From Candidatus Zhuqueibacterota bacterium (GTDB taxonomy: Bacteria > Zhuqueibacterota > Zhuqueibacteria > Oceanimicrobiales > Oceanimicrobiaceae): a stretch of DNA of 64,000 bases. The position numbers and the translations under genes were made by a program. Shown one piece after another: positions 17,731 through 31,636 of the stretch. The notes under the pieces were generated by a model, which was not told the DNA's origin, searched no databases, and worked only from the letters and a program-made list of their open reading frames with translations. The DNA lies in NCBI GenBank assembly GCA_029262055.1, contig JAJDAD010000012.1, positions 1-64,000 of the forward strand, written 5' to 3'. Numbering within the stretch: position 1 is the stretch's first letter; each line of letters begins with the position of its first letter.

Positions 17731-17749
17731 AAGCGTGCCCAAAAACCGC

Positions 17750-17777
17750 TTGACATTTGTTGAAATTACCTTATATT
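17750..17777 (+). promoter_or_regulatory. Promoter of the aromatic amino acid supraoperon
   Basis: A perfect TTGACA at 17750-17755, a 16-nt spacer and TATATT at 17772-17777. Transcription would begin near 17784, about 28 nt before the leader peptide start codon. It is immediately downstream of mutL and is the only good promoter seen before the operon. Confidence 0.7.
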
Positions 17778-17811
17778 CCGTTTTAATCATTTGAACGAGA
17801 CTGCAGGCGAT

Positions 17812-17904
17812 ATGAAGCATCTTCCCGCAAATTATTTTTGGCGCAACTGGTACTGGTATTATTATACCAGTAGTGGGAAGGACAGCCACAGCTCGTCGCG
17901 CTAA
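17812..17904 (+). CDS. trpL: Aromatic leader peptide (trpL-like), Trp/Tyr/Phe-rich
   Basis: A 30-residue open frame with ATG at 17812 and TAA at 17902-17904, starting 28 nt after the predicted transcription start. An AGG lies just upstream. Residues 8-18 read YFWRNWYWYYY: nine of eleven are aromatic, with Trp at 10, 13 and 15, Tyr at 8, 14, 16, 17 and 18, and Phe at 9. The codons for Tyr14-Trp15-Tyr16 are themselves strand 1 of the attenuator hairpin. As in the enterobacterial trp leader, ribosome pausing here should decide whether the downstream terminator forms. The Tyr and Phe codons are unusual for a trp leader and match the wider content of this operon. The start codon and hairpins are seen directly; regulation is inferred from the family mechanism. 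Confidence 0.88.
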   Translation: MKHLPANYFWRNWYWYYYTSSGKDSHSSSR

Positions 17905-17962
17905 CAGCGCCGGATTTCGGACTACCCAACCCACTACATAAAAACTATGTAGTGGGTTTTTT
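17851..17962 (+). promoter_or_regulatory. Transcription attenuator of the aromatic supraoperon (strands 1-4)
   Basis: Four pairing segments can be read. Strand 1 is TACTGGTAT (17851-17859). Strand 2 is ATACCAGTA (17864-17872), a perfect 9-bp complement of strand 1 that continues into GTGGG. Strand 3 is CCCACTACATA (17930-17940). Strand 4 is TATGTAGTGGG (17946-17956). Strand 2's GTAGTGGG (17870-17877) is identical to the core of strand 4, so it can pair with strand 3's CCCACTAC as an 8-bp antiterminator. A ribosome paused on the leader's aromatic codons would cover strand 1, free strand 2 to pair with strand 3, and allow read-through. Without pausing, 3:4 forms and terminates. The pairings are visible; the switch is inferred by analogy with known trp attenuators. 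Confidence 0.87.
17928..17962 (+). terminator. Attenuator terminator (strands 3:4)
   Basis: A perfect 13-bp stem, AACCCACTACATA with TATGTAGTGGGTT, a 5-nt loop AAAAC, and six T residues at 17957-17962. It ends 15 nt before the trpE start codon and so controls the whole operon. Confidence 0.9.
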
Positions 17963-17977
17963 ATTTTGAGGCAAACT

Positions 17978-19447
17978 ATGACGTTCGAGGAATTCGAAAA
18001 CTATGCCGGACAGGGCAACCTGATTCCGGTTTACAGCACGTACATGGCCGACTTGCTCACGCCGGTCTCGGCCTACCTGCGCCTGCAACAAGCTTCTTCC
18101 CGTGCCTTTCTGCTCGAAAGTGTAGAGGGCGGCGAGAAAAGCGCGCGCTTCTCTTTTCTCGGGTTTGAGCCGTTCAGCACGATTCGAGTTTCGGATGGCT
18201 GGCTGGAAATTGAAGACGGTCCCCACACCAGGAGGGTGCAAGACAACATTTTCGACTACCTTGCGAAGCGTCTTGAAGAATACCGGCCGGTACGTCCCGA
18301 CAGTCTGCCGCGCTTCACCGGTGGTGCGGTTGGTTACTTCGGTTACGAGACCATTCGGTACATCGAAGATATTCCGGTGCAATCCGAGTCCGTGCCCGGA
18401 ATACCGGAAGCCGTGGTGATGTTGTTCGATACAGTGCTTGCGTTTGATCATCTTCGCCACCAGATTTACATCATAAAGAACGTATTTCTGCCGGACGGGG
18501 AGACCAATCTGCGGGACGCCTACGCGCAAGCGCAGGTAGAAATCGGGCGGGTTGCAGAGATGCTGGACGTTCAGATTCCGCAGGGCAAAGCTAACGTCAG
18601 CCAGAACGGATATTTGGTCGAGTCGAATTTTCGGGAAGAGGATTTCAAGGCAGCGGTTGAGCGGGCCAAGGAATACATTGCCAGCGGGGACATATTTCAG
18701 GTGGTGCTGTCGCAGCGGTTTTCCCGCCCCATCGATGCGGCGCCCTTTGCAATATACCGTGCTTTGCGCGTTGTCAATCCTTCCCCGTATCTCTATTTTA
18801 TGCAAATGGACGATTGCAGCATCATCGGGTCCTCACCTGAGCTTCTGGTCAGGGTAGAGGAAGGTCAGGTGGAGGTTCGTCCGATTGCGGGCACACGGCC
18901 GAGGGGTGGCACGGAAGCAGAAGACGCCCGATTGCAGGCGGAGCTGGCTGCTGATGAGAAAGAAAAGGCCGAGCACGTCATGCTGGTGGATCTTGGTCGC
19001 AATGACGTCGGCAAGGTCAGCACGCCGGGCTCTGTTGCGGTCAACGAGTTTATGACCGTTGAAAAGTACTCACACGTGATGCACCTGGTTTCCAATGTGC
19101 GGGGCAAACTGAAGCCCAATCTGACCGCCCTCGATGCCCTGAAATCCTGCTTCCCGGCGGGTACGGTTTCCGGTGCTCCCAAAATCCGGGCTATGGAAAT
19201 CATCAGTGAATTGGAAAACGAACGGCGGGGGGTCTACGCTGGCGCCCTGGGCTACCTGGATTTTGCAGGAAACCTGGACACCTGCATCGCGATTCGGACC
19301 ATTCTAACCAGCGATGGGCATGCCTATTTTCAGGCGGGTGCCGGAATCGTGGCGGATTCGGTTCCACAACGGGAATTCGAAGAGACTGAGCACAAGGCGG
19401 CGGCCCTGCGGGCGGCCATCGAGTTCGCAGAAATGGGTATGAAATGA
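17978..19447 (+). CDS. trpE: Anthranilate synthase component I
   Basis: A 489-residue protein that converts chorismate to anthranilate using ammonia from TrpG. Signature blocks are ASGDIFQVVLSQRF, SIIGSSPELLVR, RPIAGTRPRG, LVDLGRNDVGKV, CFPAGTVSGAPKIRAMEI and YAGALGYLDFAGNLDTCIA. Near the N-terminus FLLESVEGG preserves the LLES-type tryptophan feedback site, so the enzyme is probably inhibited by Trp as well as controlled by the attenuator. ATG 17978 has GAGG 6 nt upstream; an earlier in-frame TTG at 17966 would overlap that site. It is the first structural gene after the attenuator, and its end overlaps trpG by 4 nt. Confidence 0.97.
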   Translation: MTFEEFENYAGQGNLIPVYSTYMADLLTPVSAYLRLQQASSRAFLLESVEGGEKSARFSFLGFEPFSTIRVSDGWLEIEDGPHTRRVQDNIFDYLAKRLEEYRPVRPDSLPRFTGGAVGYFGYETIRYIEDIPVQSESVPGIPEAVVMLFDTVLAFDHLRHQIYIIKNVFLPDGETNLRDAYAQAQVEIGRVAEMLDVQIPQGKANVSQNGYLVESNFREEDFKAAVERAKEYIASGDIFQVVLSQRFSRPIDAAPFAIYRALRVVNPSPYLYFMQMDDCSIIGSSPELLVRVEEGQVEVRPIAGTRPRGGTEAEDARLQAELAADEKEKAEHVMLVDLGRNDVGKVSTPGSVAVNEFMTVEKYSHVMHLVSNVRGKLKPNLTALDALKSCFPAGTVSGAPKIRAMEIISELENERRGVYAGALGYLDFAGNLDTCIAIRTILTSDGHAYFQAGAGIVADSVPQREFEETEHKAAALRAAIEFAEMGMK

Positions 19448-20034
19448 TTCTGATGATTGACAATTACGATTCATTTACCTTTAATCTCGTACAGTATTTG
19501 GCGGAATTGGGAGCAGACCTGGAGGTCCGGCGCAACGACGCAATCTCCACCAGCCAAATCGCAGAACTTGGGCCAATCGGAATCGTTATTTCTCCCGGGC
19601 CGGGACGACCTGAGAATGCAGGCGTCTGCATAGATCTAATTAAGGAGCTGGGCGACCGGCAGCCGATTTTGGGTGTGTGTTTGGGACACCAAGCGCTTGG
19701 CGTGGCATTCGGCGGGCAGGTGGTTCGCGCACCTGAACTTATGCATGGCAAGACCTCGAAGGTTTTTCATGAAGGCCAGGGGCTTTTTCACGACCTCGAC
19801 AGCGGCTTCGTGGCGACGCGCTACCATTCTCTCGTGGTCGAGCGGGCGTCTCTGCCGGAGACGTTAACCGTGACTGCTGAGACGAAGGATAAAACCATCA
19901 TGGGACTGCAGCATACCAGCCTGCCGCTGTTTGGCGTGCAATTTCATCCTGAGTCCATCCTTACTGACGGTGGTAAACAGTTGTTGAGGAATTTTCTGGA
20001 TATTTGTGCGAAGCCTAGCGGGGACACGACATGA
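19444..20034 (+). CDS. trpG: Anthranilate synthase component II (glutamine amidotransferase)
   Basis: A 196-residue class I glutamine amidotransferase that supplies ammonia to TrpE. The catalytic triad is visible: Cys79 in GVCLGHQALG, and His168 and Glu170 in GVQFHPES. The oxyanion loop SPGPGRPENAG and N-terminal DNYDSFTFNLVQYL are typical. The same protein may serve p-aminobenzoate synthesis, as TrpG/PabA often does; its place between trpE and trpD supports the Trp role. The start overlaps the end of trpE (ATGA) and its own end overlaps trpD, so translation is coupled. Confidence 0.96.
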   Translation: MILMIDNYDSFTFNLVQYLAELGADLEVRRNDAISTSQIAELGPIGIVISPGPGRPENAGVCIDLIKELGDRQPILGVCLGHQALGVAFGGQVVRAPELMHGKTSKVFHEGQGLFHDLDSGFVATRYHSLVVERASLPETLTVTAETKDKTIMGLQHTSLPLFGVQFHPESILTDGGKQLLRNFLDICAKPSGDTT

Positions 20035-21050
20035 TTCAAACTGCATTGAAAGAAGTCATTACCGGCCGGGATCTGAACCGCCAGCAAGCGTGCGACGTCA
20101 TGCGTTTCATCATGGACGGGCAGGCCACACCCGCCCAGATCGCCGGCTTTCTCGTGGCCGAAAAGCTGAAGGGAGAGACGTTCCAGGAAGTGGCGGGCTT
20201 TGCCACCGCTATGCGCGAAAAAGCTACCCCGGTGACAACCGTACACAAGAATGCTATCGACATGTGCGGCACAGGTGGTGATTGTGCCGGCATCTTCAAT
20301 GTTTCTACGGTCGCTTCTTTTGTGGTCGCGGCATGTGGTGTGCCGGTGGCCAAGCATGGGAATCGTTCGGTTTCGAGCCAATGTGGCAGTGCCGATTTGC
20401 TGGAGTCTCTCGGCGTAAATATCGATTTGACGCCGGCCCAGGTCGGGCGCTGTCTGGATGAGATTTTTTTCGGCTTCTTGCACGCGCCTGCCCTGCACAG
20501 AGCCATGAAGTACGCCGTTGGACCGCGACGAGAGCTTGGGATTCAGACGGTATTCAATATTCTGGGGCCGATCACCAACCCTGCGGCCGTGCGCCGGCAA
20601 TTGCTCGGTGTTTTCGATGCCAAAGTTGCCCGGCTTATGGCTGAAGTCCTGCGTGAACTTGGCGTAGACCACGTTTTGGTCGTGCACAGCGACGATGGTA
20701 TGGACGAGGTTTCTATCTATGCACCGACAAAAGCCTTTGAAGTACGTGGCAGCGAGATGCGCGAACTGCAGATTCTGCCGGCGCAGTTTGGCCTGGAATC
20801 GCCGTCAGGCGGAGCTGCGAAGGGGGGCACGCCGGCTGAAAATGCCCAAATCGCCCTCGATGTCTTGTCCGGCCGCGTTGGACCCGAGCGAGAATTCGTG
20901 CTGGCAAACGCCGCCTGCGGCCTGGTTGTCGGCGGATTGACTGACGATTTCGGGCAGGCCGCCGAGCTCGCTCTTGATGCGCTTGATTCGGGGAACGCCC
21001 TCAACAAGTTGGATGAGCTGCGACAAATGAGCCAGGTATTGGCAAAATGA
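20031..21050 (+). CDS. trpD: Anthranilate phosphoribosyltransferase
   Basis: A 339-residue enzyme that transfers phosphoribose from PRPP to anthranilate. The PRPP and anthranilate motifs are intact: DMCGTGGDCAGIFNVST (GTGGD at 80-84), KHGNRSVSSQCGSAD (108-122) and a VGPRRELGIQTVFNILGPITNPA block. It is a separate gene and not fused to trpG as in enterobacteria. It overlaps trpG and trpC by 4 nt each, consistent with translational coupling in a single transcript. Confidence 0.96.
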   Translation: MIQTALKEVITGRDLNRQQACDVMRFIMDGQATPAQIAGFLVAEKLKGETFQEVAGFATAMREKATPVTTVHKNAIDMCGTGGDCAGIFNVSTVASFVVAACGVPVAKHGNRSVSSQCGSADLLESLGVNIDLTPAQVGRCLDEIFFGFLHAPALHRAMKYAVGPRRELGIQTVFNILGPITNPAAVRRQLLGVFDAKVARLMAEVLRELGVDHVLVVHSDDGMDEVSIYAPTKAFEVRGSEMRELQILPAQFGLESPSGGAAKGGTPAENAQIALDVLSGRVGPEREFVLANAACGLVVGGLTDDFGQAAELALDALDSGNALNKLDELRQMSQVLAK

Positions 21051-21841
21051 GTATTCTAACCGAAATTCTGCGCGACAAGAAGGTCGAGGTCAGCAAACGG
21101 CAATCTCAGGTTTCCTTGTCCGCTCTTTTGGGACGCGTAAAAGACCAGCCGGGTGTGACGTCCTTGAGGGAGAAACTGCAACAATCAGAAACCGTTGCGG
21201 TCATTGCAGAGATCAAGAAGGCCTCACCATCGGTCGGCGTTATTCGGGAAGATTTTGAGCCGGTTGAGATAGCTGAAAGTTATGTTCGGAATGGCGCAGC
21301 TGCTATTTCCGTGCTGACCGACGAAAAGTACTTCTCCGGCAGTTTGGAATATCTGGAGTTGGTACGGGATAACGTTGACCAGCCGTTGTTGCGCAAGGAT
21401 TTCATCATTGAGCCGTATCAGATTGTTGAATCGCGTGCGGGCGGCGCCGATGCCATTTTACTGATCGTTAGCGCGTTGTCCAAAGATCAGTGCAAAGAGC
21501 TGGCCGCGACCGCCAGGGAATACGAGCTGGACTTTTTGGTCGAAGTGCACACTACCGCGGAGATTGAGTTTGCGCTAGGTGAGGAGTACCCGTTGGTCGG
21601 GGTCAACAATCGTGATTTAAGCTCGTTTACCACAGATCTGACCACAACTGAGAAGCTCGTAAGGATCGCCCCTGCGAGTACGGTCGTAGTCTCGGAAAGC
21701 GGCCTCGGCAGCGGGAAGGATGTTGAGCGCCTGAGCAGAGCCGGCGTCGACGCTGTCCTGATAGGGGAAAGCCTCATGCGCCGGCCAGACCCGGGAGAGG
21801 CGCTGCAAGAATTCGTTGGAGTCACAAAATGCCAAAGGTAA
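21047..21841 (+). CDS. trpC: Indole-3-glycerol phosphate synthase
   Basis: A 264-residue TIM-barrel enzyme that closes the indole ring from CdRP. Conserved strands are VIAEIKKASPSVGVI (catalytic Lys57), LLRKDFIIEPYQI, GADAILLIVSAL, DFLVEVHT, VGVNNRDLSSF and VVSESGLGSGKDV. The length is normal for a monofunctional TrpC. It overlaps trpD by 4 nt and trpF by 13 nt. Confidence 0.96.
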   Translation: MSILTEILRDKKVEVSKRQSQVSLSALLGRVKDQPGVTSLREKLQQSETVAVIAEIKKASPSVGVIREDFEPVEIAESYVRNGAAAISVLTDEKYFSGSLEYLELVRDNVDQPLLRKDFIIEPYQIVESRAGGADAILLIVSALSKDQCKELAATAREYELDFLVEVHTTAEIEFALGEEYPLVGVNNRDLSSFTTDLTTTEKLVRIAPASTVVVSESGLGSGKDVERLSRAGVDAVLIGESLMRRPDPGEALQEFVGVTKCQR

Positions 21842-22467
21842 AGGTCTGTGGTATCACCAATGCCGATGATGCGCTGCTCGCCTGCGACCTGGGTGCGGAT
21901 GCGCTGGGTTTTATTTTCTATGAAAAAAGTCCACGCCACATCGCTGCGCACAACGCAAAGGCCATCGTGCAGAGCTTGCCGCCGTTTGTGACCAGTGTCG
22001 GGGTTTTCGTGAACGCGACACCGGAGTTTGTGAACGAGGTTTGCGCTGATTTATCTTTGGATCTGGCGCAATTGCACGGCGACGAAACGCCGCAGTATTG
22101 CGCCGCGCTGCAGTCTGACTTCCTGAAAGTCTTCAGGGTCGGGCAGAATTTTGACCTGAGCACACTGGCCCAATATCCCACTGCTAAAGGGTATTTGCTT
22201 GACACGTACCAGAAAGACGTCTATGGCGGAACCGGCCATACATTTGATTGGTCTGCGGCTGCCGGGGCCAATCAATATGGTTCAGTTGTCCTCTCCGGTG
22301 GCCTTTCAGCGGAGAATGTGCGTGCCGGCATTACCGCTGTTGCGCCCTATGCCGTGGATGTTTGCAGCGGGGTAGAAGCTCATCCCGGCAAAAAAGATCC
22401 GAAGGAGTTGAAGAGATTTATGCAGGAAATAGAAGCGATGAAACCACCGGAGTTGCAAGTTGCCTAA
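21829..22467 (+). CDS. trpF: Phosphoribosylanthranilate isomerase
   Basis: A 212-residue TIM-barrel isomerase (PRA to CdRP). Typical motifs are [11 protein letters not shown] with the catalytic Cys, [41 protein letters not shown] and [15 protein letters not shown]. It overlaps trpC by 13 nt and trpB by 8 nt. It is monofunctional, unlike the TrpC-TrpF fusion of E. coli. Confidence 0.95.
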
Positions 22468-23665
22468 CCCAGAGACAGACATCGCCCTGCCGGACAAAAG
22501 CGGGTACTTTGGCGCTTTTGGCGGCAAGTTCGTACCCGAAGTACTGCTCCCCGCCCTCGCTGAGCTGGAAGCAGCTTATCTTGAAGCACGGCATGACGCC
22601 GACTTCAAGTCGAAGCTGGAGCAGGAGTTGAAGCAGTATTCCGGGCGAACAACGCCGTTGACCTACGCAGCGCGTTTGACGGAACACCTCGGCGGCGCCA
22701 GAATTTTTCTGAAGCGGGAGGATTTGAATCACACCGGGGCCCACAAAATAAACAACGCCCTCGGTCAGATTCTTCTTGCTCAGAGAATGGGTAAACAACG
22801 TATTATCGCTGAAACAGGAGCCGGTCAGCATGGCGTCGCGACTGCGACCGTGGCGGCGCGGTTTGGCCTGAACTGCGTGGTGTACATGGGGGAGGAGGAC
22901 ACGCGGCGGCAGGAGCTCAATGTCTTCCGAATGAAGCTGCTCGGGGCCGAGGTCGTACCGGTCACGGGTGGTAGCAGAACCTTGAAGGACGCCATCAACG
23001 AAGCGTTGCGTGACTGGGTCACCAACGTTCGGGACACCTTTTATCTTATCGGGTCCGTGGTTGGACCACACCCGTATCCTATGCTGGTGCGGGATTTCCA
23101 GGCGGTTATCGGCCGTGAAACGCGGCAGCAGTTCCTTGAGAGAGAAAGCAGATTGCCTGATTACGTAGTTGCCTGCGTGGGCGGCGGCAGCAACGCCATC
23201 GGGATGTTTCACCCGTTTCTCAACGATTCCGTGGTACAGATGATTGGAGTGGAGGCCGGCGGGCTTGGACTGCAGACGAACCGGCACGCCGCGACACTAT
23301 GTTCCGGGACTAAAGGCGTCTTGCACGGGGCCATGACCTATCTTTTGCAGGATGGGGACGGCCAGATCCAGGAGGCGCATTCGGTTTCAGCCGGATTGGA
23401 TTATCCGGGCGTCGGTCCCGAACACAGCTACCTGAAAGACTCAGGGCGCGTTGCCTACCAGTCGGTCACTGATGCTGAGGCGTTGCAGGCGGTTAAGCTC
23501 CTTTCAGAGACTGAGGGCATCATTCCGGCTCTGGAAACAGCCCACGCGCTCGCGTTCACGGCTAAGCTTGCGCAGAAAACCAGCCAGGATCAGGCGATCA
23601 TTGTGTGTCTTTCGGGCCGTGGCGACAAGGACGTGCGAGTAATTCAGCAGGAGTTGAACTTATGA
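22460..23665 (+). CDS. trpB: Tryptophan synthase beta chain
   Basis: A 401-residue PLP enzyme that condenses indole with serine. The PLP lysine lies in [18 protein letters not shown], followed by [17 protein letters not shown], the phosphate-binding [10 protein letters not shown], and the [12 protein letters not shown] block typical of TrpB1. Translation begins at TTG 22460 with GGAG 7 nt upstream, since no ATG or GTG is suitably placed. It overlaps the 3' end of trpF by 8 nt and is followed after 10 nt by trpA, with which it forms the alpha2-beta2 channelling complex. Confidence 0.96.
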
Positions 23666-23675
23666 GGACGTCGCT

Positions 23676-24491
23676 ATGAGCCGGCTTGCAAACTTAATCA
23701 GGGACCGGATGGCACAGCGGAAGAAGCTGCTATCTGTTTTTCTGACTGCCGGCTATCCTGAACTTGAAAGTCTGCCGCAATTGGTGGATATAGTCGCGGA
23801 CAGCGGCGCGGATTTTGTGGAGATCGGCATTCCATTCTCCGACCCGATAGCCGATGGCCCGGTGATCCAGAAATCGTCTCAGGTTGCGTTAGCCAATGGC
23901 ATCGATCTAAGAAGGATCATTGAACAGATAAGCGAAATCCGAAAAACCAACGATATACCGATTGTTTTGATGGGTTACTTAAACCCAATGTTGCGATACG
24001 GGTTACGCGATTTTGTTACGGATGCCCAAGGTTGCGGAGTGGATGGCTTTATCATCCCGGACCTGATTCCGGAAGAGTATGAGCGCTTGCAGCCGGCATT
24101 CCCGCCGTCCTCCCCAGGTGTCAATTTTCTGGTTTCGCCAAATACGCCTCTGGCCCGCGCCAAAGCGATCGCGGACCTCACTCACGATTTTGTTTATTGT
24201 GTGTCAGTAACAGGAGTGACAGGCGCTCGTGACGGGATCGCAACCGAGACAGTGGCGTTCTTGCAGAGTATTCGGCAGGTTGTCTCCCGTCCGTACTTTG
24301 TGGGATTTGGCATATCCTCAGCGCAAGATGCGGCCCGGTTGGCCGGGTTGAGCGACGGCGTCATTGTAGGCAGCGCGATCATCAGGATTCTCGACCGGAC
24401 TGAGCCGATGGCTGCCCGATTGGGGACGGTTGGTGACTATGTCTCAGGTCTTAAATCCGCATTGGAAGGGTTGTCAGATGGAAATTGCTGA
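23676..24491 (+). CDS. trpA: Tryptophan synthase alpha chain
   Basis: A 271-residue TIM-barrel enzyme that cleaves indole-3-glycerol phosphate. The catalytic Glu49 and Asp60 are in FVEIGIPFSDPIADGP. Other landmarks are VLMGYLNPMLRYG, DGFIIPDLIPEE, YCVSVTGVTGAR and VGFGISSAQDAARL. It is the last of seven canonical trp genes and overlaps the chorismate mutase gene by 14 nt, which ties the Trp block to the common aromatic block in one transcript. Confidence 0.96.
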   Translation: MSRLANLIRDRMAQRKKLLSVFLTAGYPELESLPQLVDIVADSGADFVEIGIPFSDPIADGPVIQKSSQVALANGIDLRRIIEQISEIRKTNDIPIVLMGYLNPMLRYGLRDFVTDAQGCGVDGFIIPDLIPEEYERLQPAFPPSSPGVNFLVSPNTPLARAKAIADLTHDFVYCVSVTGVTGARDGIATETVAFLQSIRQVVSRPYFVGFGISSAQDAARLAGLSDGVIVGSAIIRILDRTEPMAARLGTVGDYVSGLKSALEGLSDGNC

Positions 24492-24762
24492 TTGGCGCAA
24501 GCTCATCGATGAAATCGATTCAGAAATGCTACAGTTGTTGAGTAAGCGGGTTCAGTACACAATTCACATAGGCGATATCAAGGCGGTGAACGGGCAGGCG
24601 GTGTACTCTCCAGAACGGGAGGCCATCATCCTGGAAAGACTCATTCTGGAAAACAGCGGTCCGTTAACCGAAGAAGGCGTTCGCAGGATTTTCGAACGCA
24701 TCATTGATGAATCGCGATGTATCGAAAAACAACACTGCAAAGACATGCAGAGGGAGAAATGA
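24478..24762 (+). CDS. Chorismate mutase (AroQ class)
   Basis: A 94-residue all-helical chorismate mutase that makes prephenate. MEIADWRKLIDEIDSEMLQL, LLSKRVQYTIHIGDIK and the later YSPEREAIILERL match the AroQ-fold signature (Arg and Lys in helix 1 and the loop, then xPxRExxIL). ATG 24478 has AAGGG upstream and gives the usual length; an upstream in-frame start would add residues that read through trpA sequence. It overlaps trpA by 14 nt and ends one base before the DAHP synthase start. Stand-alone mutases encoded beside type I-beta DAHP synthases can associate with them; that is inference here. Confidence 0.9.
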   Translation: MEIADWRKLIDEIDSEMLQLLSKRVQYTIHIGDIKAVNGQAVYSPEREAIILERLILENSGPLTEEGVRRIFERIIDESRCIEKQHCKDMQREK

Positions 24763-24763
24763 A

Positions 24764-25777
24764 ATGGTGGTTGTAATGGCCGGGAATGCAAGTGAAGAGA
24801 GCACGGCCAACGTTATTGGAAAACTGACGGAAATGAACTTTGACGTGCATCGTTCCACTGGCGTCAATCAAACGGTACTCGGCGCCGTTGGCGATAAGCG
24901 CGGTCTTGATCCAAGACTGATCGAGGTCATGCCCGGCGTTCAAAAAGTAGTGCGGGTGAGCGAGCCATACAAGCTGGCTAGCCGAACGGTGCAGCCCGAA
25001 GACACAGTCATTAAGGTAAAGGATGTGAGCATCGGCGGCGACAAGCTGGTGATGATGGCCGGTCCATGTTCCGTGGAGGGCCGCGATGAGATTCGCGAGA
25101 TCGCTGCTACTATTGCCAGAGCCGGTGCGAGCGTCTTGCGCGGCGGAGCGTACAAGCCAAGAACGTCTCCGTACAGTTTTCAGGGTTTGGGAGAAGAAGG
25201 ATTGAAATATCTGTCTGAAGCCGCGACCGAAAACGGCATGGTCAGCGTGTCGGAAGTGATGGAGAGCGGCCAAATACCGGCTCTACTCGAGCATGTCGAT
25301 ATCCTGCAGGTTGGCGCGCGCAACATGCAAAATTTTTCGCTTCTGCGGGAGCTTGGAAAAGTCAGGAAACCTGTTCTGCTCAAGCGGGGTCTGTCCGCCA
25401 CCATCGAGGAGTTGCTGATGGCCGCCGAATATATCATGGCCGGTGGCAATTTTGAAGTCATTCTTTGCGAACGCGGTATCAGGACTTTCGAAAAGTACAC
25501 CCGCAACACGCTTGATCTCTCGGCCATTCCCGTGGTCAAGAAGCTCAGTCACTTGCCGATCATCGCCGACCCCAGCCATGCTACCGGCCGCAGGGACAAA
25601 GTTGCGCCCATGGCCCGCGCCTCGATTGCCGCCGGTACCGATGGCCTGATGATAGAAGTGCATCAGCAACCGGAAATGGCCATGTCCGACGGGCCGCAAT
25701 CTCTTTACCCTGAGCAGTTTCAAAAATTGATGGGTGAGTTGGAAATTATCGCACAGGCTGTAGGCAAAAAATGGTAA
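24764..25777 (+). CDS. aroF: 3-deoxy-7-phosphoheptulonate (DAHP) synthase, type I-beta with N-terminal regulatory domain
   Basis: A 337-residue enzyme catalysing the first step of the shikimate pathway from PEP and erythrose 4-phosphate. The first 70 residues form the ferredoxin/ACT-like domain of the Thermotoga-type enzyme (MVVVMAGNASEES, NFDVHRSTGVNQTVLGAVGD), which gives Tyr/Phe feedback in characterised relatives. The catalytic barrel has MMAGPCSVEGRDEI, GGAYKPRTSPYSFQGLG, GARNMQNFSLL, PVLLKRGLSATIEE, CERGIRTFE and IADPSHATGRRDKV. ATG 24764 follows GGGAG by 7 nt; extending upstream to 24704 would overlap the mutase gene by 59 nt. The aroF symbol is generic, because naming within this class varies. 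Confidence 0.93.
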   Translation: MVVVMAGNASEESTANVIGKLTEMNFDVHRSTGVNQTVLGAVGDKRGLDPRLIEVMPGVQKVVRVSEPYKLASRTVQPEDTVIKVKDVSIGGDKLVMMAGPCSVEGRDEIREIAATIARAGASVLRGGAYKPRTSPYSFQGLGEEGLKYLSEAATENGMVSVSEVMESGQIPALLEHVDILQVGARNMQNFSLLRELGKVRKPVLLKRGLSATIEELLMAAEYIMAGGNFEVILCERGIRTFEKYTRNTLDLSAIPVVKKLSHLPIIADPSHATGRRDKVAPMARASIAAGTDGLMIEVHQQPEMAMSDGPQSLYPEQFQKLMGELEIIAQAVGKKW

Positions 25778-25811: not shown

Positions 25812-26909
25812 ATGAGGTTTAAGCGAATCGCAATTGTCGGCGTGGGGTTGCTAGGTGGTTCATTTGCCGCAACTTTGCGCCGCAAAGCTCCGGCGGTTTC
25901 AATCGTAGGTGTCGATTCCGAATCAGTGATTCGCAAGGCCCTTGAGCTTGATCTTGTGCACGAGGGATATTCACGCGAGGACGTAGGCAAGGCCACGGCA
26001 ACGGCGGACCTGATTCTGCTTGCCGCTCCGATTCATCAGATTATCGCGTTGTTACCGGCGATAAGCGGACAACTAAAGCCCGGAGCGCTGGTTACCGACG
26101 TCGGCAGCACCAAGACCGAAATCCTCGCTGCAGCAAACAGAGCGATGCCGAAGACTGCGTATTTTTTGGGAGGCCATCCCATGGCAGGTGCGGAACGCAG
26201 CGGGGTCGAGCAGGTTGATCCCCTGTTGTTCGAAAACGCCGTCTATGTCTTGTGCAACGAGGAACGTGTCCCCGCGGCGCTGGTAGATGATTTCGTCGAG
26301 TTGGTGGAGACGCTTGGCGCAAAGGCTGTATTTTTGGCCGCGGACCGGCATGATTCGATCGCCGCAGTCGTAAGTCACCTACCATATCTAATGGCAGTGA
26401 CACTCATGAATTATGCCGCCGGTCTAAACGAACAGGATTCTTCCTATTTGCGCCTTGCTGCCGGTGGATTTCGCAGCATGACGCGAGTCGCGTCCAGCCC
26501 GTTTGACATTTGGGAAAACATACTGCTGAGCAACCAGGCTAATGTGGTCAAGGCTATGGATGAATTCATAAACGGACTTACGGCAGTCAGGAACAAACTG
26601 GGCACAAACGATCTACGCAATAATTGTGACTCGGCCGCGAAAAAACGACTATCGATCCCCAGAGATACACGAGGGTTTCTGCGGCCACACCATGATTTGT
26701 ATGTCATCGTCGAAGACAAGGCAGGAGAGATCGCGACCATCGCCAACACGCTCGCCCGCGAGAACATCAACATCAAGGACATCGAAGTGGTCAAGGTGCG
26801 GGAAAATGAAGCCGGCACCATCCGCCTCGCTTTTGTGAAAGCGGAAGAGCGCGAACGTTCGTTGGAGTTGCTCGCTGCAGTGGGGTTTGAATCACGAATT
26901 AAGGACTAA
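25812..26909 (+). CDS. tyrA: Prephenate dehydrogenase with C-terminal ACT domain
   Basis: A 365-residue NAD-dependent enzyme of the tyrosine branch. A Rossmann N-terminus (IAIVGVGLLGGSFAATL) is followed by VTDVGSTKTEILAA and FLGGHPMAGAERSGVE, the substrate-site signature with the catalytic His. The helical dimerisation part holds VSHLPYLMAVTL and AAGGFRSMTRVASS. The last 75 residues form an ACT domain (LYVIVEDKAGEIATIANTLA, NINIKDIEVVKV), which suggests feedback by Tyr. It lies 34 nt after the DAHP synthase gene, the largest gap in the operon. No strong ribosome site is visible before the ATG. Confidence 0.94.
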   Translation: MRFKRIAIVGVGLLGGSFAATLRRKAPAVSIVGVDSESVIRKALELDLVHEGYSREDVGKATATADLILLAAPIHQIIALLPAISGQLKPGALVTDVGSTKTEILAAANRAMPKTAYFLGGHPMAGAERSGVEQVDPLLFENAVYVLCNEERVPAALVDDFVELVETLGAKAVFLAADRHDSIAAVVSHLPYLMAVTLMNYAAGLNEQDSSYLRLAAGGFRSMTRVASSPFDIWENILLSNQANVVKAMDEFINGLTAVRNKLGTNDLRNNCDSAAKKRLSIPRDTRGFLRPHHDLYVIVEDKAGEIATIANTLARENINIKDIEVVKVRENEAGTIRLAFVKAEERERSLELLAAVGFESRIKD

Positions 26910-26917
26910 GGAAGTTC

Positions 26918-28201
26918 ATGCATAAACTTATCGAACCTGGGAGCAGAGTGAGGGGGAGCATAAAACTGCCTGGGGATAAGTCCATTTCACATCGTGCGCT
27001 CATGTTTTCGGCGATTGCCAGCGGGACCGGCAGGATCGAGAACCTCAGCAATGGCATGGACGTGCACAGCACCATGGCATGCCTGGAACAGCTTGGCGTT
27101 AAGTTTGAGAAGGATGAGACCCAGGTTGTAGTACACGGCGTGGGACTGCGCGGCTTGCAAAAGCCCTCCCAAAAGCTCGACGTCGGTAACTCCGGCACAA
27201 CCATCCGGTTGCTTGCGGGCATTCTCGCCGGCCAGTCGTTCCAGAGTGTAATCACGGGTGACGAGTCTATCCGGACCCGTCCCATGCGGCGTATCATTGC
27301 GCCTCTCAGCGCAATGGGCGCGCAGGTAGTCGCCAGTCAGGATGAGTACGCTCCTCTGCAAATCCAGGGAAACCAGTTGCAGGGGATTCACTACCGGCTG
27401 CCGGTGGTCAGTGCGCAGGTAAAGTCCTGTATTCTTTTGGCAGGACTTTATGCCGACCGCCAGACGACCGTGGAGGAAATCGCGCCAACCAGAGACCACA
27501 CAGAGCTGATGTTGAGCAAGTTTGGCGCTTCGGTGCATAAGGAAGCTCTCAAGATCACGGTTCAGCCGGCGGAGACTTTGACGGCTCAGGACATATTCGT
27601 GCCCGGCGATCTTTCCTCAGCAGCGTTCTTCATCGCGGCTGCGACCCTGCTGCAGAACTCGGATCTCGTCATCCGGAATGTTGGAATCAACCCGACCCGC
27701 AAGGCTTTTCTGTCGCTGCTCTGCGATTTTGGCGCGGACCTGGAAATCATCAATGTCAGGACCGTTGACAACGAGCTAATGGCGGACTTGCATGTATGCT
27801 CTGCCCCGCTGCAGGCGATGTCAATCGGCGCAGACATCGTTAGCCAGGTCATCGACGAGATCCCCATTCTGGCGGTGATGGCCACACAGGCGACCGGCCG
27901 GACGGAAATCAGCGGCGCCGGCGAACTCAGGTTGAAAGAGTCGGACCGACTGAGGAGCATTGCGTTCAACCTGCAAAGGATGGGAGCTGAGATTGAAGAA
28001 AAGAAAGATGGTCTGGTCATTCAGGGACCCGTCAGGCTGAAAGCGGCTGAACTAGAGCCTTTCGGTGATCATCGAATCGGTCTTTCCTTTTCGATAGCGG
28101 CTCTCATTGCGGAAGGCGTTTCAAAGATAAAAAACAGCCAGTCCATCGACATCAGTTACCCTGATTTCTTTGACACCATGGACGAAATCGTCGAAAGATA
28201 G
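26918..28201 (+). CDS. aroA: 3-phosphoshikimate 1-carboxyvinyltransferase (EPSP synthase)
   Basis: A 427-residue enzyme joining PEP to shikimate 3-phosphate. Motifs are LPGDKSISHRALMFSAIA (Lys and Ser of the S3P site), LDVGNSGTTIRLLAGILAG, RPMRRIIAPL, LPVVSAQVKSCILLAGLYA, PGDLSSAAFFIAAATLL, IDEIPILAVMAT, LRLKESDRLRSIA and FGDHRIGLSFSIAAL. The NSGTT loop reads GNSGTTIR. AAGGAAG precedes the ATG. Spacing is 8 nt after tyrA and 5 nt before aroE. Confidence 0.96.
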   Translation: MHKLIEPGSRVRGSIKLPGDKSISHRALMFSAIASGTGRIENLSNGMDVHSTMACLEQLGVKFEKDETQVVVHGVGLRGLQKPSQKLDVGNSGTTIRLLAGILAGQSFQSVITGDESIRTRPMRRIIAPLSAMGAQVVASQDEYAPLQIQGNQLQGIHYRLPVVSAQVKSCILLAGLYADRQTTVEEIAPTRDHTELMLSKFGASVHKEALKITVQPAETLTAQDIFVPGDLSSAAFFIAAATLLQNSDLVIRNVGINPTRKAFLSLLCDFGADLEIINVRTVDNELMADLHVCSAPLQAMSIGADIVSQVIDEIPILAVMATQATGRTEISGAGELRLKESDRLRSIAFNLQRMGAEIEEKKDGLVIQGPVRLKAAELEPFGDHRIGLSFSIAALIAEGVSKIKNSQSIDISYPDFFDTMDEIVER

Positions 28202-28206
28202 ATCTC

Positions 28207-29070
28207 ATGCCTTTACGCTTTGCTGTCATTGGGCAGCCCATCGAGCACTCGTTAAGCCCTTACCTGCACAATTACCTGCTCCGTGAAATCGGTGAGGACG
28301 GCCAGTACGAACGGCGTGAGGTAGCTGGCGACGCGCTCACAGCTGCGTTGGCTCAGCTCAAAGGTCAGGGCTTCCGCGGCTTTAACATCACCATTCCACA
28401 TAAACAGGCGGTGTTGCCGCTGTTGCAGGAGGTCAGCGAACAGGCCCGGGTCATCGGCGCGGTCAATACGGTTTTGATCAATGAGAGCGGGCTCGCCGGG
28501 TTCAATACGGATCATTCAGGCTTCAGTGCCGCGCTCGCCCATCACAGTTATGTCCCGCAACAAGGCCTGGCGGCCGTACTCGGCGCAGGAGGAGCAGCCC
28601 GGGCGGTGATTTTCAGTTTGGCCGAAAGCGGCGCCCGGCGCATCGTCACATTCGGGCGGACTCATGAACGTGCCGTCCGCATGGCCGCGGAGCTGTCCGC
28701 TGCATTCCCGGACTGTGAGATCACCGCGGAATCATGGGACAACGGAACGATCATGCAGACCGTGCGCGGCGCAGACTTACTGGTAAACGCTACGCCCGTG
28801 GGCATGTGGCCGGCAGTTGCGGAAACGCCGTTACAAATAGATTTTTCCTGTTCACATCTTGTTGCCGCGGACTTGATTTATAATCCTCTACGAACTAACT
28901 TCCTGCTTGCTGCCGAAGCGCACGGCGCAAAGATAGTCGATGGCCTGGATATGTTTATTTTCCAGGGAACCGGGGCATTGAAAATTTGGCTTGGGAGAGA
29001 TTTTGACTTTGGCTTTCGGCAGTTGCGCGCACACCTAATCAAACAACTGGAAGAACATGGCAAACATTAA
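28207..29070 (+). CDS. aroE: Shikimate dehydrogenase
   Basis: A 287-residue NADP-dependent reductase of 3-dehydroshikimate. The N-terminal substrate domain has FAVIGQPIEHSLSPYLHNYL and GFNITIPHKQAVLPLL (catalytic Lys), then GAVNTV and GFNTDHSGFSAAL with the catalytic Asp. The cofactor domain has AVLGAGGAARAVIFSLAESG. The closing GLDMFIFQGTGALKIW is also typical. The protein is slightly longer than average (about 270). It overlaps aroC by 14 nt. Confidence 0.95.
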   Translation: MPLRFAVIGQPIEHSLSPYLHNYLLREIGEDGQYERREVAGDALTAALAQLKGQGFRGFNITIPHKQAVLPLLQEVSEQARVIGAVNTVLINESGLAGFNTDHSGFSAALAHHSYVPQQGLAAVLGAGGAARAVIFSLAESGARRIVTFGRTHERAVRMAAELSAAFPDCEITAESWDNGTIMQTVRGADLLVNATPVGMWPAVAETPLQIDFSCSHLVAADLIYNPLRTNFLLAAEAHGAKIVDGLDMFIFQGTGALKIWLGRDFDFGFRQLRAHLIKQLEEHGKH

Positions 29071-30250
29071 TTTTCTAACTGCGGGCGAATCGCACGGACA
29101 AGGGCTGGTAGGCGTGTTGGAAGGCGTTCCCGCCGGGCTTCCTATTTCTGAGGAGGAGATTCTGCACGACCTGCGGCGACGGCAAATGGGGCATGGCCGG
29201 GGCGGTCGCATGAAAATAGAAACAGACACTGCGCGGATTTTTTCCGGCGTGCGTTTTGGCAAAACCCTGGGTTCGCCGATTTCCCTGCTGATTGAAAACC
29301 GCGATTGGCAAAACTGGCAGAGCAAAATGTCAGTGGCGGAGATAGACGAAGCCCAACATGAGGTGGTGGTCCCCCGTCCGGGGCACGCCGACTATGCCGG
29401 GGCCATCAAGTATGATCACTCTGACATCCGAAACGTGCTTGAGCGGGCGAGTGCGCGCGAGACTGCAGCCCGCGTGGCAATCGGTGCAATCTTGCGAAAA
29501 TTTCTGGACGAATTATCCATCAAGGTCGTGAGCCACGTGCTTCAGATTCACACTGCGCGCAGCCCTTTTAGCGTGGCCGCCCTTGGCACAAACAGCAAAA
29601 CAGAGTTTGAGCTGGACCAGATCAACGAACTGGCAGATAAATCATCTGTGCGTTGTCTGGATTCCGAAGTCGGCGATGCGATGATTGCCCAAATCGATCG
29701 GGCGAAAGCAGACAGAGACACTGTGGGTGGGATTTTTGAGGTAGTTGCCTTAAACGTACCCATTGGTCTGGGCAGTCACGTGCACTGGGAGCGCAAACTG
29801 GACGCGCGCATCAGCCATGCTATGATGAGCATCCCTGCCATGAAGGGTGTCGAAATCGGCCTGGGTTTTGCGGCTGGCGGCATGCTTGGTTCGGAAGTGC
29901 ATGATCCTATTTACTACGACAAGGCCGCAGGTGGTTACCACCGCTCGAGGAACCATGCCGGTGGGCTGGAAGGCGGTATTACCAACGGCATGCCCGTGGT
30001 GGTGCGCGTGGCGATGAAGCCCATTTCAACGCTCCTGAAACCGCTTGATTCCGTCAATATGCAGACACTGGAGAAAACCGCCGCCCACATTGAACGCAGC
30101 GACGTGTGTGCCGTGCCCGCAGCATCGGTGATCGGAGAAGCGGTTTTGTGTCAGGTTCTCGCGGATGCCGTGCTGGAGAAGTTTGGCGGCGACTCCATGA
30201 CCGAAATCTCACAACGCTATGCAGACTGGCAGAAAACCTCCACCCGATAA
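29057..30250 (+). CDS. aroC: Chorismate synthase
   Basis: A 397-residue FMN-dependent enzyme that converts EPSP to chorismate. Signatures are FLTAGESHGQGLVGVLEGVP, RRQMGHGRGGRMKIE, VVPRPGHADYAGAIKY, RNVLERASARETAARVAIGA and GGYHRSRNHAGGLEGGITNG. The catalytic His in GESHG is present, and RPGHAD holds the second. It starts inside the end of aroE and its own end overlaps aroK by 32 nt. Confidence 0.96.
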   Translation: MANINFLTAGESHGQGLVGVLEGVPAGLPISEEEILHDLRRRQMGHGRGGRMKIETDTARIFSGVRFGKTLGSPISLLIENRDWQNWQSKMSVAEIDEAQHEVVVPRPGHADYAGAIKYDHSDIRNVLERASARETAARVAIGAILRKFLDELSIKVVSHVLQIHTARSPFSVAALGTNSKTEFELDQINELADKSSVRCLDSEVGDAMIAQIDRAKADRDTVGGIFEVVALNVPIGLGSHVHWERKLDARISHAMMSIPAMKGVEIGLGFAAGGMLGSEVHDPIYYDKAAGGYHRSRNHAGGLEGGITNGMPVVVRVAMKPISTLLKPLDSVNMQTLEKTAAHIERSDVCAVPAASVIGEAVLCQVLADAVLEKFGGDSMTEISQRYADWQKTSTR

Positions 30251-30767
30251 CCGGAATATCTATCTGGCAGGCTTCATGGGCGCCGGTAAAACGACTGTCG
30301 GGAAAAAACTGGCCAGGCTCACGGAACGTACGTTTACAGATACGGACGCTGAGATTGAAGCGCGAATAGGGAAAAGCACTGCCGACATTTTCCGGGATGA
30401 GGGCGAGGCGTCCTTTCGCCGGGTTGAGTCGGAGGTCGTGGCGCGGGTTTCCATGCTGTCGAATCTGGTAGTTGCCTTGGGCGGTGGCGCCATTTTGGCT
30501 AAGACAAACTGGGAGCGAATTTCTCAGACCGGGCACACTGTTTTTCTGGACTGGCCAGCCGACTGTCTGCTTGCGCGCATTTTGCACGGGGAAGGGCGGC
30601 CATTGGTCGAACAAGCACCCCTAACAGACCGTGCAGACCGCCTGCGACGATTATTGCAGGAAAGGCTGCCGTTTTACCAAAGATGTACCATTACAGTTAA
30701 GTGCGATGAAGCCATGACGCCGGAACAGATTAACCAACATATTCTGCAACAAATCGAAGAGCTATGA
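30219..30767 (+). CDS. aroK: Shikimate kinase
   Basis: A 182-residue nucleoside-monophosphate-kinase-fold enzyme. The P-loop is GFMGAGKTTVGKKLA, followed by the shikimate-binding FTDTDAEIEARIGKS (Asp), FRRVESEVV and VALGGGAI. The lid region holds ILHGEGRPLVEQ. The only in-frame ATG that keeps the first strand is 30219, deep inside the end of aroC and without a good ribosome site, so initiation is probably coupled to aroC translation. It overlaps the next gene by 4 nt. Confidence 0.93.
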   Translation: MQTGRKPPPDNRNIYLAGFMGAGKTTVGKKLARLTERTFTDTDAEIEARIGKSTADIFRDEGEASFRRVESEVVARVSMLSNLVVALGGGAILAKTNWERISQTGHTVFLDWPADCLLARILHGEGRPLVEQAPLTDRADRLRRLLQERLPFYQRCTITVKCDEAMTPEQINQHILQQIEEL

Positions 30768-31636
30768 TAGAAAAGATAATCGTTGTAAATGGTCCGAATC
30801 TCAATCTGTTGGGGGAGAGAGAACCCGAAATCTACGGCGCCCTGACTCTCGCCGAAATGGAAGCAAAGATACAGCAGTTTGCCGCGGATATGAACATCGA
30901 AACAAAGCTGTTTCAGTCTAATTCGGAAGGCGAAATCATCGATTTCATTCATGAACAGCGGAACTGGGCGAACGCATTGGTGATTAACCCGGCTGCCCTG
31001 ACTCATTACAGTTATGCGCTGCGCGACGCGGTCGCGGCTGTCAGCATGCCGACGGTTGAGGTCCACCTGTCAGACGTCGACAAGCGAGAGTCGTTCCGGA
31101 AGCACTCGGTTTTGACACAAGTCGTGGCCGGGCGTTTCAAAGGACTGGGTTTGCAGGGCTATCTTCGCGCCATCGAGTTTTTAGTAGGGCAGAGTGTCCA
31201 AGATGAATTGCGCGGCTGTATTGAGCGGAACGCTGGCAAAGACCAACTGCTGGTCGAGACTGCGAAACTGCTGAAGGCGCGTTTTCCCAAGTATGACTGG
31301 GTGGGGATTTACATGGTGGCGGGCACCGAGCTGGTGTTGCACAACTTTCTGGGGAAACCCACACCGCACGAGCGCATTGCCATCGGTGAGGGCATCTGCG
31401 GAGCTGCCGTTTCGGAGCGACACACAATTCTTGTTTCTGACGTAAAATCCGACCCGCGATATATTGCCTGCAGCATTGAAACCCGCTCTGAAATCGTTGT
31501 CCCCATCTTCTCAGAAGGCCAGATAATTGGCGAAATCGACATCGACAGCGACCAGCCGGATGCATTCCACAGCGGCGACCAGGAGTTCCTGGAGTCGTGC
31601 GCAGAGTTGCTGGGGCCACATCTTTCCGGTGCGTGA
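30764..31636 (+). CDS. aroQ: Type II 3-dehydroquinate dehydratase fused to a GAF domain (fRMsr-like)
   Basis: A 290-residue two-domain protein; the normal enzyme has about 145 residues. Residues 1-143 are a complete type II dehydroquinase with NGPNLNLLGEREPEIYG (Tyr24), QSNSEGEIIDFIHE, INPAALTHYSYALRDA (Asn75, His81), VEVHLSD (His101) and FRKHS (Arg112). Residues 144-290 form a GAF domain of free-methionine-(R)-sulfoxide reductase type: YDWVGIYMV, IGEGICGAAVSE (Cys212), YIACSIETRSEIVVPI (Cys236) and IIGEIDIDSD. Compared from memory with E. coli MsrC, the two later cysteines are kept and the first (IAC before the GxGVCG loop) is missing. No stop or frameshift separates the domains. This is the last gene of the supraoperon. 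Whether the GAF part is catalytic or regulatory is unknown. Confidence 0.88.
   Translation: MIEKIIVVNGPNLNLLGEREPEIYGALTLAEMEAKIQQFAADMNIETKLFQSNSEGEIIDFIHEQRNWANALVINPAALTHYSYALRDAVAAVSMPTVEVHLSDVDKRESFRKHSVLTQVVAGRFKGLGLQGYLRAIEFLVGQSVQDELRGCIERNAGKDQLLVETAKLLKARFPKYDWVGIYMVAGTELVLHNFLGKPTPHERIAIGEGICGAAVSERHTILVSDVKSDPRYIACSIETRSEIVVPIFSEGQIIGEIDIDSDQPDAFHSGDQEFLESCAELLGPHLSGA

Follow-up and report, generated by a model that had tools for sequence, protein, structure and literature searches.

The window, by which we mean the whole stretch of 64,000 nucleotides that was analysed, contains the 15-gene aromatic supraoperon that had been proposed in an earlier note on this DNA. The gene order is trpEGDCFBA, chorismate mutase, aroG, tyrA, aroA, aroE, aroC, aroK and aroQ-GAF (Table 1), and throughout the 15 genes the intergenic gaps are 34 nt or less, or the genes overlap. 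Its genes serve the synthesis of tryptophan, of tyrosine and of the common aromatic precursors. It has no pheA, which sits on a separate contig of the same genome and is preceded by a Phe leader (FYFSFFFF) and a terminator of its own. The last gene of the operon, aroQ (30764-31636), encodes a 3-dehydroquinase with a C-terminal GAF domain fused to it.

Table 1 Features of the aromatic operon and of its leader region in the window, together with the pheA leader from a separate contig of the same genome
Feature	Position	Strand	Remarks
Sigma-70-like promoter, TTGACA-16 nt-TATATT	17750..17777	+	consensus match at 11/12 positions
Leader peptide ORF, 30 codons + stop, W3 Y5 F1	17812..17904	+	ORF reading; genomes of the same family have homologous leaders
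Strand 1, outer part, CTTCCCGC	17821..17828	+	pairs with 17873-17880, 8 bp, one G-U
Control codons F9 W10 (R11 N12) W13 Y14 W15 Y16	17836..17859	+	stall here predicted to free strand 2 (stall model)
Strand 1, inner part, TACTGGTAT	17851..17859	+	pairs with 17864-17872, perfect 9 bp
Strand 2	17864..17880	+	antiterminator half 17870-17877 is GTAGTGGG
Strand 3	17928..17940	+	17930-17937 (CCCACTAC) pairs with strand 2; whole length pairs with strand 4
Strand 4 (17946-17958) and U6 run (17957-17962), intrinsic terminator	17946..17962	+	3:4 pairing
trpE, first gene	17978..19447	+	NCBIfam TIGR00564 above cut-off; RBS GAGG 17968-17971
trpG, trpD, trpC, trpF, trpB, trpA	19444..24491	+	
Chorismate mutase, AroQ class	24478..24762	+	Pfam CM_2
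aroG-type DAHP synthase	24764-25777	+	
Prephenate dehydrogenase tyrA with ACT domain	25812-26909	+	
aroA, aroE, aroC, aroK, aroQ	26918..31636	+	
pheA leader, Phe-rich, MQIIKPQSSFYFSFFFFGPRSGARRL	L146 positions 1796-1876		terminator present

Upstream of trpE there is a short ORF, which starts 34 nt after the promoter-like site and translates as MKHLPANYFWRNWYWYYYTSSGKDSHSSSR, followed by the stop codon. Similar TTGACA sites also precede the leaders of relatives. Re-reading the frame confirms that it has 30 codons and that residues 8-18 are nine-elevenths aromatic, with three Trp, five Tyr and one Phe. This is the single short ORF with nine aromatics in 11 residues in the real 64 kb, where none has six to eight. 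In 60 shuffles of the window, short ORFs with seven aromatics in 11 occurred on average 0.033 times per 64 kb, and there were none with eight or more, so the leader is not a chance ORF. Its translation is predicted, and the repertoire of its aromatic run matches the content of the operon, as in an attenuator.

The RNA of this region can form four pairing strands. It had been claimed that strands 1 and 2 are perfectly complementary, which is true of the inner 9-bp stem; there is in addition an outer 8-bp stem, absent from the earlier note, and this has one G-U pair. The remaining pairings are as previously described: the antiterminator 2:3 has eight perfect pairs (17870-17877 with 17930-17937), and the terminator 3:4 has 13 (17928-17940 with 17946-17958) and a T6 tail at 17957-17962. 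The U run ends at 17962 and the ATG of trpE is at 17978, giving the expected 15 nt between them. The antiterminator and the terminator are mutually exclusive.

The folding energy of 17796-17965 has a z score of -5.4 against dinucleotide shuffles, none of 200 shuffles being as low. Before strand 4 has been made the two best states are almost equal in energy, at -35.1 kcal/mol for 1:2 and -35.2 kcal/mol for 2:3, which provides the bistability required by such a switch. With a ribosome placed at the stop codon, the equilibrium fold leaves P(2:3) at 0.66 and termination is not clearly favoured, and the 'off' state would therefore rely on folding kinetics. At the gathering score no Rfam family, Trp_leader included, matches the window, and the Rfam T-box model likewise finds no T-box leader in it; a relaxed Rfam search of 17740-18000, with E up to 5, gave hits at chance level only.

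The placement of the codons was analysed with a stall model. For each codon in turn, the model asks whether a stall at that codon leaves strand 2 available to strand 3 in a transcript that does not yet extend to strand 4. Its results depend on the assumed footprint and on the absence of pairing across the ribosome. The proposal that the Trp codons and Tyr14 are placed to free strand 2 is borne out by the model: W10, W13, Y14 and W15 are predicted to be permissive at every footprint edge tried from 9 to 15 nt, with P(2:3) of at least 0.87. Y8 (17833-17835) acts much like the control codons F9 to Y16. Over the same range of footprint edges, the control codons are thus predicted to be sited such that a stall frees the antiterminator strand. 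In most of the leaders described below, the end of the aromatic run coincides with, or falls just short of, the first codon at which a stall no longer frees strand 2. Pairing across the stalled ribosome would be expected to weaken the switch in some of them, as in L039, where P(2:3) is 0.10-0.17 if the upstream strand 1 is allowed to pair in this way.

Relatives were taken from a sample of 82 genomes of the phylum, in which families are coded f1, f2 and so on. Regions containing trpE, aroG/tyrA and pheA were gathered, with the genes mapped by tblastn using the window proteins, and short upstream ORFs were scanned for at least five W/Y/F in nine residues, in any mix, or three W in seven. Since any mix of the three is accepted, the scan does not dictate which aromatic turns up where. 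It yielded 61 leaders, and all 61 are followed by a hairpin and a U run. The leader frame and the complementary strands are present in relatives. For three draft genomes (G001, G007 and G058) the fusion of the operon was inferred from a second contig, their own or one from the same genus, on which the trp genes continue into chorismate mutase, aroG and tyrA. The scan found no leader in two genomes of genus g15 (L048, L050), in L207, or in eleven distant phylum members (L175-L185) in which trpE comes after trpBA. A contig scan beyond the sample reached mostly distant phyla without aromatic leaders, and two outsiders, L069 and L106, that have fused operons and mixed leaders.

Several loci have features of their own. 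In G005 (L037) the leader is present farther upstream of trpE, and between the attenuator and trpE there is a divergent tRNA-Trp (CCA)-like gene on the same strand (minus, raw 5580-5653), which might be co-regulated with the operon; this genome also has an ordinary tRNA-Trp within a tRNA cluster. G004 (L189), from the same family as the window, retains an attenuator-like leader, MNAYFPTARFFGSWWPVNNGKEVFSFE, while its trpE is without about 300 internal codons and its genome gives no match to trpA. Its trp locus is either undergoing decay or misassembled. Matches to prephenate dehydratase and to DAHP synthase share one open frame, an apparent fusion, in G025 (C61:25942-27666, 695 aa) and G054 (C121:46359-48080, 726 aa). 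Family f2 is represented by the loci L165, L202 and L209, and in L165 the TrpB-like gene comes after an SbnI-like serine kinase gene.

The aromatic repertoire of the leaders tracks the content of the operons. Within the control zone, taken as the nine codons ahead of the switch point in the stall model, the W/Y/F counts for 13 fused trp+tyr/aro operons are 32/29/17 of 117 codons, and their leaders are mixed (YFWRNWYWYYY, for example). For 20 trp-only operons they are 66/3/6 of 173 codons, with Trp leaders such as WWWW. For 25 aro/tyr-only operons (chorismate mutase/aroG/tyrA) they are 1/95/59 of 224 codons, and separate chorismate mutase-aroG-tyrA-aroA operons have Tyr/Phe leaders such as FYNYYYFYFYF. 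Three aro operons with a trpB-like gene have 9/7/3 of 27 codons. In a few leaders (L042, L046, L049 and L059) the zone was set in the wrong place by the automatic switch-point finder, and composition was therefore recounted on the best aromatic stretch, without the stall model. In the best 11 residues, Y+F amounts to 3-7 in fused operons against 0-3 in trp-only operons, and W to 1-4 in fused operons, or to 3 in aro operons with a trpB-like gene, against 0-1 in aro operons (Mann-Whitney 1.5e-6 and 6.8e-9, kinship not being corrected for).

Exceptions are few. A single W occurs in each of three aro-operon leaders (L159, L160 and L163), and L172 is a partial exception, a trp-only operon with the leader WWWYY, perhaps left over from a time when the operon was fused. 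In f4, f9 and f11 the leader is Trp-only even though the trp operon includes a DAHP synthase. Overall, the way in which leader make-up follows operon content across the 61 leaders of relatives argues, at the level of sequence, for the joint sensing of Trp and Tyr, with Phe weaker, that had been suggested for the window.

Covariation, named in the earlier note as a check on the strands, was scored in 11 aligned leaders of the fused type. It supports the switch itself: 2:3 is paired in 90.9% of cells with 8 cells changed on both sides, 3:4 in 91.7% with 20 such cells, and the inner part of 1:2 in 79.8%, with five pairs (11 cells) changed on both sides. All three scores are higher than those of all 500 shuffles, and slid controls for 2:3 and 3:4 drop to 37-55% paired. 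The outer part of 1:2 is paired in 89.8% of cells and has two pairs changed on both sides, including one clear T-A to A-T swap, and its score among the 11 leaders is not above the shuffles, 76 of 500 being as high.

The history of the operons can be followed in two gene trees. Genus g15 (family f8), which has a trp-only operon, is nested within fused relatives in the TrpE tree. Its leader (CWWRQWWRTPGHDGNC, against FYWSYWYWRQRGHGGNC in genus g23 of the same family, where the operon is fused) is homologous to those of the fused relatives, with GHDGNC in place of GHGGNC and the same terminator type, and it has lost the Tyr/Phe codons from its aromatic run where the operon split. The AroG tree places the fused families f1, f6 and f8 together, near the aro-only families, with f2 as a second group and L069 as a third. 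Fused and aro-operon leaders have in common a terminator type (CCCACTAC...GTAGTGGG) and an SSGKD-like tail, which are not found in the trp-only leaders of f3-f7. The simplest reading of these sequences is that an aro-type leader acquired Trp codons when the trp genes joined. In family f2, where trpE, trpF and trpA were looked for and are absent, the aro operon, whose leader contains WFWYWYY, includes a TrpB-like gene, which together with the SbnI-like kinase suggests that Trp may be made from indole and phosphoserine. None of the independent fused/split contrasts goes in the wrong direction, and as there are only two to three per tree, a sign test on them cannot reach significance.

On the basis of these observations, the element in front of trpE is very probably a ribosome-mediated transcription attenuator whose leader has control codons for Trp, Tyr and Phe alike. 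RNA polymerase would start from the promoter at 17750-17777 and would then pause past the 1:2 hairpin, until freed by the first ribosome, which travels through Tyr8-Phe9-Trp10...Trp13-Tyr14-Trp15-Tyr16. If Trp-tRNA or Tyr-tRNA is scarce (or Phe-tRNA, for which there is one codon), the ribosome would stall and block the pairing of strand 1. Strand 2 (17870-17877) would then be free, 2:3 would form, the 3:4 terminator would be prevented, and the 15 genes would be transcribed. When all three are plentiful, the ribosome would clear strand 2, allowing 1:2 to re-form and 3:4 to form, and transcription would end. The leader would in this way act as an OR gate for shortage of any end product that uses the operon. 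Taking sequence and modelling together, the attenuator probably opens the operon on a shortage of Trp or of Tyr, and more weakly on one of Phe.

It is unlikely, though it deserves some weight, that this is an ordinary Trp-only attenuator, with Tyr and Phe codons that result from the pairing strands or from neutral drift. The Trp codons do occupy the best position, and the inner part of strand 1, TACTGGTAT, encodes Tyr-Trp-Tyr; some of the Tyr codons are structure-bound, since this sequence has to pair with strand 2. However, the trp-only operons of the phylum have Y or F at 9 of 173 zone codons and their strands pair equally well, while the aro/tyr operons are the mirror image, with 1 W in 224. 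In the window Y and F also occur outside strand 1, at Y8 and F9. Furthermore, the same position uses both Tyr codons, and Y and F disappear when the operon splits.

The earlier note had raised a second alternative, in which a shortage of Trp opens the operon, whereas one of Tyr, acting through codons 16-18, masks strand 2 and so closes it. We regard this as very improbable. In the footprint model Tyr18 is indeed mostly masking and lies past the switch point, as in part does Tyr17, and in many mixed leaders one to three Tyr codons straddle that point. However, Tyr17 is ambiguous, with P(2:3) of 0.03-1.0 depending on the footprint, and Tyr16 is permissive (0.62-1.0), so that opposition to read-through would be valid at most for Tyr17-18, and Tyr8, Tyr14 and Tyr16 precede these and are permissive. 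The leaders with Tyr and Phe alone also pass the switch point, so the straddling run seems to reflect a common design, with no reversal of sign.

A kinetic model points the same way; it uses assumed E. coli rates, and so only the ranking of its read-through values is meaningful. At 1 codon per s the modelled read-through is 0.92 for Trp, 0.91 for Tyr and 0.54 for Phe limitation, at 3 codons per s it is 0.64, 0.72 and 0.26, and with full amino acid supply it is 0.09. Limitation for Tyr would therefore have the same effect as limitation for Trp, and not a different one as had been suggested, because Tyr8 and Tyr14 would halt ribosomes earlier. Phe sensing in the window depends on a single codon.

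Nascent peptides rich in aromatic residues are able to act within the exit tunnel, which raises the question of whether the nascent peptide is sensed, in the manner of a TnaC-like arrest peptide, in place of the supply of charged tRNA. We give this hardly any credence: the peptide is not conserved outside the aromatic run, and among relatives the order and number of W, Y and F vary freely while their type follows the operon, which fits codon-by-codon sensing. Finally, the idea that the leader, which as an ORF does have a promoter and a terminator, is simply a small coding gene with no role in the control of trpE can for practical purposes be set aside, given that the 3' part of the ORF also serves as strand 2, whose partners covary, that its repertoire tracks the downstream genes, and that the terminator lies 15 nt from trpE.

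The mechanism of the three-aromatic attenuator is classical, and the variation lies in its leader. The logic is that of the ilvGMEDA and thr leaders, in which a single leader has codons for several of the amino acids that its operon produces; these leaders sense branched-chain or Thr/Ile supply, whereas the window leader is concerned with aromatics. The pheA attenuator, with a Phe-rich leader and a terminator as at the separate pheA of the window genome, senses Phe only and serves a single-pathway gene, unlike the leader described here. In E. coli trpL, Trp is sensed via two Trp codons and the stop codon is ahead of strand 2, whereas the window has W, Y and F in its control zone and a stop codon 25 nt past the antiterminator half of strand 2. 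In other respects the two are alike, each having a control-codon leader, strands 1-4, and an antiterminator 2:3 competing with a terminator 3:4, all upstream of trpE (PMC1183508).

Attenuators have been computed in front of tyrA-containing supraoperons, for example in Desulfovibrio vulgaris (Merino database, cited in PMC1173090). There, as in the window, the predicted attenuator is upstream of a joined trp and aro operon, but the supraoperon begins with aro genes, and the relevant part of that source describes neither a leader peptide nor its codons, the word 'leader' being absent from it. In the aromatic supraoperon of Bacillus subtilis, according to the same part of the source, trp genes lie inside an aro operon (PMC1173090); the trp and aro genes are thus joined as in the window, but regulation there is by the RNA-binding protein TRAP and not by a translated aromatic leader. 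No Trp+Tyr+Phe leader came up in a full-text literature search, most subscription journals being outside its scope. Leader repertoires that track operon fusion and fission are likewise unreported in the literature searched, which did not extend to older comparative papers on attenuators.

We think it likely that the leader is part of a three-amino-acid OR-gate attenuator, with a codon repertoire that is rewritten whenever a pathway is added to the operon or lost from it. Trp codons would have been gained in f1/f6/f8, in f2 with its TrpB-like gene, and in the L069/L106 lineage, and Tyr and Phe codons lost in genus g15 of f8 on the splitting of its operon. With a single short coding leader, the window apparently has a natural three-input sensor, and its phylum, Zhuqueibacterota, is one for which attenuation seems undescribed in the literature searched. 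The phylum also offers a natural experiment, in which one kind of switch carries codon sets for Trp, for Tyr/Phe or for all three, each in front of the matching operon, and which makes testable predictions of how regulation tracks operon fusion and fission. The contents of an operon could be guessed from its leader, and if the rewriting proposed here is true, leader composition would be a readable record of operon history.
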